Below, piece by piece: positions 50,848-64,000 of a stretch of DNA of 64,000 nt. Location: contig JAUXYJ010000062.1 of NCBI GenBank assembly GCA_030694465.1, positions 26,370 to 90,369 on the forward strand, in the 5' to 3' direction. A program made the position numbers and the translations under genes. Below the pieces are notes generated by a model that saw nothing but the letters and a program-made list of their open reading frames with translations, searched no databases and was not told the origin of the DNA. The DNA comes from Deltaproteobacteria bacterium (GTDB lineage Bacteria > Myxococcota_A > Polyangia > Polyangiales > Ga0077539). Every line of letters starts with the position of its first letter. Within the stretch, counting starts at the first letter, position 1.

Positions 50848-50927
50848 CGCGCGGGGGCGAGGGCTGTGTGAGCGGTGGGCGACAGGCGAGGCCGTGGGGC
50901 TCGGGAGTGTCCGAGACAGGTCGAGCA

Positions 50928-61177: not shown

Positions 61178-61373
61178 GTGGGCGACACGCTGGGCGGTGG
61201 GCGACAGCCGGGGAGCCTTGGGCGACAGCCGGGAGGCCGTGGGCGACACGCAGAACCGTGGGCGACAGGCCAAACAGGCTGTGGGCGACACCGGGGAGGC
61301 GCTGGGCGACACCGGACAGCCCTTGGGCGACACGTGGCGAGCCGTGGGCGACACACGGGGCCGTGGGCGACAG
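61178..61373 (+). repeat. Interspersed motif array: ten TGGGCGACA copies at ~21-bp spacing
   Basis: Copies start at 61179, 61198, 61219, 61240, 61259, 61282, 61303, 61324, 61345, 61364 (steps 19,21,21,19,23,21,21,21,19) separated by variable GC-rich spacers. Confidence 0.85.
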
Positions 61374-61472
61374 GGCGCGGTGCGCAGTGGGGGGTCTTTG
61401 CAGCGTCGCGAAGTTGTGGTGCGATCTGGGGCAAGTCGCGGCGCGGCTGCCGCGGCGGGGAGAGACAACATC

Positions 61473-62393
61473 ATGACGACGAGCAAAAAGCCCGCGACGA
61501 AAGAGTCGTCGGCGGGCAAGGCGGCTGCGGCGAAGGTCGTGGCAAAGAAGGGTTCGACGGCGTCTGGCGGGACGGGAGCTTCGGCGACTGGGCTCATCCG
61601 GGCGTGGGAGGGCGATGTCAACGCGTTGATCGCAAAAGAGAGCACGGAGGTGGTGTCGCTGGGGATTCCGTTCTCGGTCTTTTTAGGCGAGTGCGTGGAC
61701 TGCGCGCGGTTTATCCGCGAGTTTTGGGAGCCTTTGGATGGCGAGCGGCCGGGCTTGGTCTGCGCCGCCAAACCGGGCGACGGAGACGCCTCGTTTAATC
61801 TCCAGACCGCGGACATCATCTTGCGGTTGCACAGCGAGGTCTTGACCGCGCAGACGCAGTACCTGTTGTCGGCCAAGGCGAAGAAGTCCGCAGCGGGGTT
61901 GCTTGAGCGCGCGGCGAAGCTGCTCGACGACATGAGCGCCGCGCTTGAGTGGTACTTTGACGACGGGGTCGAGGACGACAAAGACGCGCAGTTGGGTGCG
62001 GTTCGGGCGGCGCATGACCTGTCGAGCGGGGCGATGGACGTGGTCGCGGCGGCGCTCGAGAGCTACGCGGGGCTGGCCGAAAAGCACATCGATGCGATCG
62101 ACGGGACGCTTGGCTTTGAGCGGGCGTTTGTGGACGAAGCGCGCAAGGTCTCGCGGCAGTTGTTCGAGATGAACAGTGCGCTCGAGAGCAACCCCGAGTC
62201 TGAGGCGGCGCTCAAGCGTCGCAACAAGCTCGTGGCGGCGCTGCGATCGCGGGTGCTGCGGACGCGCAAGGTGGCGCAGCTCGTGTTTCGCGCGCAGCCC
62301 GAGATCGCGCGGCTGGTGACCAGTGCGTACCAGCGGAGGGCTCGCACGGCGCTGCGCCGAAGCGCGGCTGGCGGCGCTCCGAAGGTGACCTGA
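61473..62393 (+). CDS. Unknown 306-aa, mostly alpha-helical protein with Lys/Ala-rich N-terminal tail, between cas2 and the CRISPR array
   Basis: ATG at 61473 preceded by ggggagag; MTTSKKPATKESSAGKAAAAKVVAKKGSTASGG tail then helical body; TGA at 62391-62393. Confidence 0.75.
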   Translation: MTTSKKPATKESSAGKAAAAKVVAKKGSTASGGTGASATGLIRAWEGDVNALIAKESTEVVSLGIPFSVFLGECVDCARFIREFWEPLDGERPGLVCAAKPGDGDASFNLQTADIILRLHSEVLTAQTQYLLSAKAKKSAAGLLERAAKLLDDMSAALEWYFDDGVEDDKDAQLGAVRAAHDLSSGAMDVVAAALESYAGLAEKHIDAIDGTLGFERAFVDEARKVSRQLFEMNSALESNPESEAALKRRNKLVAALRSRVLRTRKVAQLVFRAQPEIARLVTSAYQRRARTALRRSAAGGAPKVT

Positions 62394-62488: not shown

Positions 62489-63983
62489 GTGGTCCCCGCC
62501 TGCGCGGGGATGAGCCGGTCGAGATGACCGCCGAGGTCAGCACGCGCAGGTGGTCCCCGCCTGCGCGGGGATGAGCCGCTTGCCGAGCCAGCAGCGAAAC
62601 GAGCGGCCCCGTGGTCCCCGCCTGCGCGGGGATGAGCCGCCGCGTGGCTGTCCGCGCGCGCACTACTCGCGGTGGTCCCCGCCTGCGCGGGGATGAGCCG
62701 CGGTATAGGACAGTACAGCCAGGTCATGTATGCGTGGTCCCCGCCTGCGCGGGGATGAGCCGACCGGTTACGGCGCGTGGTAGGGCGGTCGTTAGTGGTC
62801 CCCGCCTGCGCGGGGATGAGCCGGTCGACGTCGTGGCGGAGTACGTCATGGCCGAGTGGTCCCCGCCTGCGCGGGGATGAGCCGCAAACGAGGTATCCGG
62901 CGAGCGTTGCATCATCGTGGTCCCCGCCTGCGCGGGGATGAGCCGCTCAGAGTCAAACCCGTAAACGGCGCCCAGTGGTGGTCCCCGCCTGCGCGGGGAT
63001 GAGCCGGCTAACGATCCAATGAGCACGACCGAGACATAGTGGTCCCCGCCTGCGCGGGGATGAGCCGACGTCGACGCGCGCGTGGCGTTGGTCGCGCTGG
63101 TGGTCCCCGCCTGCGCGGGGATGAGCCGTTGGCGAGGGCTTGAGCTTTGGTCTTGTACCTGTGGTCCCCGCCTGCGCGGGGATGAGCCGCATCCTCTTCG
63201 CAGTCTCCGCAAACATGAGCGGTGGTCCCCGCCTGCGCGGGGATGAGCCTGTCCAGCAGATTCATCGCCTCCTGTCCAGCCCGTGGTCCCCGCCTGCGCG
63301 GGGATGAGCCGCTCACAGCCTGGGCTGTGGTGGCTCCTGGAGGGTGGTCCCCGCCTGCGCGGGGATGAGCCGTCGGTGAGCATCGACGGACTCAACGGCG
63401 ACTCGTGGTCCCCGCCTGCGCGGGGATGAGCCAGAATCGTCAGGACGCAGACAGCGCGCTGATTCGGTGGTCCCCGCCTGCGCGGGGATGAGCCGCCTGT
63501 GGTGAGCTCCCAGCGATTCTCCTCAGCGTGGTCCCCGCCTGCGCGGGGATGAGCCAGCCGTGCGCGTTTGGGCCGCACGCTACCGCTCGTGGTCCCCGCC
63601 TGCGCGGGGATGAGCCGCTCAGCGCGCGACGCTGAAAGGGGCCGCGTGTGTGGTCCCCGCCTGCGCGGGGATGAGCCGGAGCTCCGAGAGCACTGCGTTT
63701 TCACTTTCCAGTGGTCCCCGCCTGCGCGGGGATGAGCCGATCAGAGTCAAACCCGTAAACGGCGCCCAGTGGTGGTCCCCGCCTGCGCGGGGATGAGCCG
63801 TGTCGCGACTTCCATGGGACATGGACGAGTTCGTGGTCCCCGCCTGCGCGGGGATGAGCCGAATGACGCCTGATGCGGTCGCAGAATGGAGCAGTGGTCC
63901 CCGCCTGCGCGGGGATGAGCCGGTTCGCAAAACCGGGCAACGGCTAGCGGAGACGTGGTCCCCGCCTGCGCGGGGATGAGCCG
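62489..63983 (+). CRISPR. Type I-E CRISPR array: 25 repeats visible, 29-nt repeat GTGGTCCCCGCCTGCGCGGGGATGAGCCG, 24 complete spacers of 32-33 nt; continues past window end
   Basis: Repeat starts 62489, 62550, 62611, 62672, 62734, 62795, 62856, 62917, 62978, 63039, 63100, 63161, 63222, 63283, 63344, 63405, 63467, 63528, 63589, 63650, 63711, 63772, 63833, 63894, 63955; repeat hairpin CCCCGC/GCGGGG. Confidence 0.99.
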
Positions 63984-64000
63984 GAGCCTAGCACCTTGGA

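Follow-up and report, generated by a model that had tools for sequence, protein, structure and literature searches.

A helix-phased array of short direct repeats upstream of a protein family in the Myxococcota: candidate binding sites for the adjacent protein

Results

The array and its surroundings

The window, i.e., the whole stretch of 64,000 nucleotides analysed here (G000:C20:26370-90369), is part of the 7.2-Mb draft genome of a Deltaproteobacteria bacterium assigned to the Polyangia. On its forward strand, positions 61179..61372 are occupied by ten exact copies of the word TGGGCGACA, which start at 61179, 61198, 61219, 61240, 61259, 61282, 61303, 61324, 61345, and 61364. The successive steps are 19, 21, 21, 19, 23, 21, 21, 21, and 19 bp, giving a period of about 21 bp with variable spacers of 10-14 bp. 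An earlier note made from the sequence alone had described the same ten 9-mers and the same steps, and only its start position (61178) proved to be one base early. The gap between the array and the start codon (61373..61472, forward strand) contains GTTGTGGTGCGATCTGGGGCAAGTCGC at 61413-61439 and probably holds a promoter or operator; no sigma-70-like match was found in it. The first gene downstream of the array, at 61473..62393 on the forward strand, encodes P0001, a protein of 306 aa. This gene is located between cas2 and a CRISPR array of GTGGTCCCCGCCTGCGCGGGGATGAGCC repeats (type I-E-like, 62489-63990), which lies directly 3' of it and in which the spacers at about 62946 and 63731 are near-identical, one base apart.

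CRISPR arrays consist of identical repeats of at least about 21 nt with unique spacers of similar length and cas genes nearby. The TGGGCGACA array, with its 9-nt words and 10-14-nt spacers, is not of this kind, as the earlier note had also held, and the true CRISPR array is a separate one that begins at 62489. A coding repeat was likewise considered and ruled out; the array is non-coding because the 19- and 23-bp steps disrupt every reading frame. The placement of the motifs on one face of B-DNA was borne out, the phase resultant being 0.81 at 10.5 bp per turn and 0.12 at 10.0 or 11.0 bp per turn. Identity among the cores was 100%, while that of the spacers, compared pairwise, was 41-49% versus 36% expected from composition. 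The window contains the word 12 times, whereas shuffled versions averaged 0.77 copies and not one of 100 had as many as 12. A lone copy at 50876-50884, about 30 bp past a stop codon and at the start of the reading frame of a WYL regulator, is within chance expectation for the window. In the genome-wide count that the note had called for, 145 copies were found, 19 of them inside two arrays and the remaining 126 near the 101 of a reversed-pattern control.

The protein family

P0001 comprises a disordered Lys/Ala-rich N-terminal tail (residues 1-37), an all-helical core, and a basic, Arg-rich C-terminal helix (285-299). Residues 38-240 carry a net charge of -16 and residues 241-306 one of +14, and the AlphaFold2 model of the protein has a mean pLDDT of 80 and a pTM of 0.59. 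No significant match to the family was found in Pfam, NCBIfam, PHROG, PADLOC, or PDB sequences, or by fold, and no DNA-binding protein with a fold like the predicted one was matched. When relatives and afterwards the whole class were searched, homologues were present in 33 of 318 genomes, with a maximum of six copies in Sorangium cellulosum, and a phylum-wide search recovered more of them in further classes. A scan of named genomes added Minicystis rosea, Sorangium cellulosum So0157-2, So ce26, and So ceGT47, Polyangium species, and several metagenome assemblies; an array was present at 23 of the 24 loci thus examined, and the exception, L218, is truncated by a contig end. The plasmid, phage, and viral-contig collections that were searched contained no homologue. 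The ten neighbours scanned (an M16 peptidase, a Ser/Thr kinase, an exchanger, and others) had no theme in common and included neither ParA nor a recurring regulator family. In the open-access literature no description of this gene-plus-array module was found.

Association of arrays with the gene family

An array was called when an exact 6-mer formed a chain of at least four copies with steps of 19-23 bp, or double that, within 500 bp upstream of the gene. The sample, which was heavy in Sorangium, comprised 63 distinct homologues whose available upstream sequence was 350 bp or longer. Upstream arrays were found in 41 of the 63 homologues, representing 21 of 26 genera (one positive, L228, being a low-complexity CGCCGC repeat that may be coding), and downstream chains in only 3 of 60. 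A typical array has five to ten copies of its word two helix turns apart, and 177 of 249 steps were exactly 21 bp. When periods of 9-45 bp were scanned, those of 19-23 bp were seen in 27-30 of 58 homologues and their harmonic also stood out, while any other period never exceeded 2 of 58. Among control genes of the same regions, as called by a simple GC3-based caller, 15 of 238 had a chain, and six of these were near the family gene itself. The resulting odds ratio of 28 has a p value of 3e-22, which is descriptive since the set is phylogenetically uneven, and the count of genera is therefore the fairer measure.

Distant members of the superfamily (matches weaker than about 1e-18) had no array and serve as an internal negative control. 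A clear array was lacking in 22 of the 63 homologues. Some of these are the first gene of a tandem pair, and shorter or degenerate arrays, i.e., chains of only three, were present at L162, L147, L169, and L158. In tandem pairs of family genes (L134, L158, L119/L126, L176) the upstream array was usually found at just one copy. Only 9 of 41 cases had the word repeated exactly in inverted orientation in the gap before the gene, so that this is not a general feature.

Other arrays in the same genome

Three more arrays with a GCGACA core and steps of about 21 bp were found in the genome of the window, on contigs C103, C23, and C73. The C103 array has nine TGGGCGACA-type units at steps of exactly 21 bp, while those on C23 and C73 are of the CCGCGACAC type. 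The C23 array, away from the CRISPR locus of the window, is followed by a gene for a paralogue 64% identical to P0001, and the GTTGTGGTGCGATCTGGGGCAAGTCGC block (61413-61439) is closely matched 5' of that gene, the block common to both gaps being GTTGTGGTGCGATCNSGGGCAAGYCG. Array, paralogue, and common block together indicate that array and gene form a module. No family gene was found at the orphan arrays, those on C103 and C73 included (family profile, E < 0.01). Among 42 family arrays drawn from many genomes, the best match of the C103 orphan was the array of the window (0.88) and that of the C73 orphan was the C23 array (0.79). A 7-bp microsatellite of GCGACAA with more than 10 copies also occurs in this genome (G000:C41:2827-2923, minus strand).

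Arrays unrelated to CRISPR had been named in the earlier note as something that would speak against its reading. Such arrays exist, as described above, and they refute the link to CRISPR alone, because one precedes a paralogue and two carry words of family arrays. A function in CRISPR was not supported; the other modules were traced through the family gene, and no cas gene was present among the neighbours scanned.

Variation of the words

Besides TGGGCGACA and CCGCGACAC, the words include TCCGGGACA, CGAGACA, CCAGGACA, CAGGGACA, TTCCTGGAC, CATC[C/T/A]GGACA, and others in other genomes. According to the consensus list, most of them end in GACA and nearly all are in sense orientation; unrelated words (GTATAT, CGACTT, GCTCGG) also occur in some arrays. 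The similarity of arrays tracked the identity of the proteins (rho 0.66, Mantel p 0.001). It was 0.77 where proteins encoded in different genomes were 70% or more identical, while for paralogues of the same genome it was 0.36, not above that of unrelated pairs (0.35), which is the opposite of what the spread of repeats within a genome would predict. The words of three Sorangium paralogue groups, CATCCGGACA, CATCTGGACA, and CATCAGGACA, are one base apart (CATC[C/T/A]GGACA), and the positions corresponding to residues 52, 64, and 65 of P0001 differ between these groups, which is a lead only.

Orthologues of different species keep the word, and in clean groups their spacers are near random. Two such groups, L135/L136/L140 and L138/L159/L164, have their cores in common; identity is 28-36% for the spacers and 73-80% for the flank that leads from the array to the gene. 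Spacers resemble one another more closely, up to 0.7, in the CATCnGGACA groups and in some other pairs. This contrast between core and spacer is the mark of selection for binding sites and not of slippage.

Other 21-bp repeats in the Polyangia

A GGACA pattern with a 21-bp period was tried as a genome-wide proxy for the module and rejected as non-specific, because apparent coding repeats in many genomes also match it. For example, such repeats are present in long coding frames of Sorangium at L181:3804-4144 and L185:3954-4063, where they consequently encode heptapeptide repeats, and the unit at L185 resembles the word of a family array in its own genome. At L191:3491-3602 an array built of the same unit as the G001 family array is found in frame within a TonB-like gene of that genome, as if inserted. 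Between genes, the largest orphan array seen has about 17 units of the CATCTGGACA type (L182:3951-4288; Sorangium So0157-2, 9907250). Further intergenic GGACA arrays of 21-bp period have neither a family gene nor a clearly cognate word (L190, L177, L189, L192-L194), and those at L192-L194 (G295) represent a distinct repeat family, GGACACAGTCGCTCGCACGAA.

Discussion

Based on the results of this study, the module of gene and array is real, conserved, and apparently undescribed. Its iteron-like architecture is ordinary, but its protein family is new, its setting is chromosomal, and its words have diversified naturally. We consider it fairly probable, from sequence comparison, that the array is an iteron-like, self-cognate set of sites to which the adjacent protein binds and is autoregulatory. 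The protein would bind each 9-10-bp word specifically, the spacing of two turns would bring neighbouring molecules onto one face of the DNA and allow cooperative binding, and the nucleoprotein assembly formed upstream of the promoter could control the protein's own gene. Orphan arrays that carry this word would offer the protein additional sites. The role of the adjacent protein as ligand, the cooperativity, and the autoregulation are each inferred from these observations. Counted in favour are the linkage, the 21-bp period, the conservation of the cores, the tracking of word and protein, the cognate orphans, the sense orientation of nearly all words, the basic C-terminus, and the lack of signs of RNA structure. 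Because words and proteins vary together, the array probably serves as the docking site of the protein encoded beside it. On the other hand, the predicted fold, which has no DNA-binding match, counts against this reading, as do the 22 homologues without a clear array and the intergenic GGACA arrays with neither a family gene nor a clearly cognate word; the unrelated words in some arrays mean that one conserved binding mode would need great plasticity, and words could be common to close orthologues by descent alone. A wider possibility, which is rather doubtful, is that the modules make up a phylum-wide system for addressing or organising the chromosome, in which pairs of protein and array co-evolve, duplicate into orthogonal sets, and spread their words to orphan arrays.

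The ligand could also be a separate regulator, with the array as its operator and the adjacent protein as the regulated product. The array lies upstream of the promoter region, linkage by itself names no ligand, and distant superfamily members have no array, all of which would suit such an arrangement. However, three close Sorangium paralogues have words one base different, and words follow the paralogue and not the genome. One co-evolving regulator paralogue per gene would thus be required, and no recurring regulator family was present among the scanned neighbours, which makes this explanation unlikely. Of the two proteins proposed as ligands in the earlier note, the Lys-tailed one, P0001, fits the data, but the WYL regulator is unsupported; arrays precede homologues in 21 genera, these homologues having been found without reference to WYL genes, and the C23 array is on a different contig. 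The third proposal of that note, a decaying minisatellite, is disfavoured since the cores are retained while the spacers drift. The broader form of the idea, i.e., slippage-prone 21-bp repeats that expanded neutrally in intergenic DNA and have no function in binding, draws on the GGACA-type repeats of many Polyangia genomes, often apparently coding, on the copy number differing between orthologues, and on the array in frame within the TonB-like gene of G001 (L191). Slippage homogenises whole repeat units. Here the units are not homogenised, as the cores are invariant and the spacers near random, and an association with a gene is present; slippage would also leave unexplained why arrays are enriched ahead of one gene family in different classes and why they keep to the sense strand. 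A neutral origin is thus quite improbable.

Short direct repeats with helical phasing, an adjacent gene, and dispersed copies are also the architecture of centromere- or origin-like sites, at which protein and array together anchor or segregate DNA, as in StbA-stbDRs and Rep-iterons (PMC3098194, PMC3235114, PMC4980987). Against such a function, which we regard as very unlikely, are the absence of plasmid, phage, or viral-contig matches, the absence of Rep or Par homology and of a ParA partner among the scanned neighbours, and the presence of as many as six paralogues on one chromosome. The array might also act as RNA, in a transcribed leader or as a small-RNA array, and its sense-strand location 5' of the gene would permit this. 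However, its folding is less stable than that of shuffled sequences on both strands (z +0.97 and +1.74), no Rfam match was found, and the strict 21-bp period indicates the DNA helix; an RNA function is therefore scarcely credible.

Should the adjacent protein prove to be the ligand, it would represent a new DNA-binding family with an unmatched predicted fold, whose sites are supplied beside each gene, and possibly a set of orthogonal DNA-binding parts. The one-base words of the Sorangium paralogues would provide a natural specificity series for how such a fold reads DNA. The module is also a likely explanation, at the DNA level, for one class of intergenic 21-bp repeats in the Myxococcota.

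Cooperative binding on one face and autoregulation, as suggested here, are modelled by analogy on StbA-stbDRs, pMF1 ParB, and Rep iterons. By the tests made, P0001 is not a member of the StbA, ParB, or Rep families. The stbDRs of plasmid R388 are sets of directly repeated 9-bp words that surround the promoter of the gene for their binder, StbA, and extra copies occur at other promoters (PMC3098194). The arrays described here similarly have short 9-bp direct-repeat words at the gene of a putative binder and extra copies elsewhere. However, StbA is a different protein, and the stbDRs have 2-bp spacing, an 11-bp period, and a plasmid operon, whereas the present arrays are chromosomal and have a 21-bp period and words that vary by paralogue. 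ParB of the Myxococcus plasmid pMF1, from the same phylum, binds iterons both close to its operon and at scattered sites of the replicon, and it acts as a repressor of its own genes (PMC3235114). The likeness lies in these iterons near the operon with dispersed copies, but those of pMF1 are closely packed repeats (e.g., TCTAGATGTCTAGATG) in the parCAB operon of a plasmid, while the present arrays are on a chromosome with no ParA seen; neither homology to StbA or ParB nor a ParA-type partner was found (ten neighbours scanned). In Rep-iteron plasmid origins, direct repeats of 17-22 bp are bound cooperatively, and a displacement by half a turn abolishes the cooperativity (PMC4980987). Helix-phased direct repeats are present here as well, but no cognate Rep was found nearby (Pfam, NCBIfam, PHROG, PDB); Rep is a winged-helix protein acting in replication, and P0001 has no similarity to it and belongs to a family not found on plasmids. 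The arrays also resemble VNTRs or minisatellites in their tandem units of about 21 bp and variable copy number, and differ from them in the invariant cores, the divergent spacers, the association with a gene family, and the covariation of word and protein.
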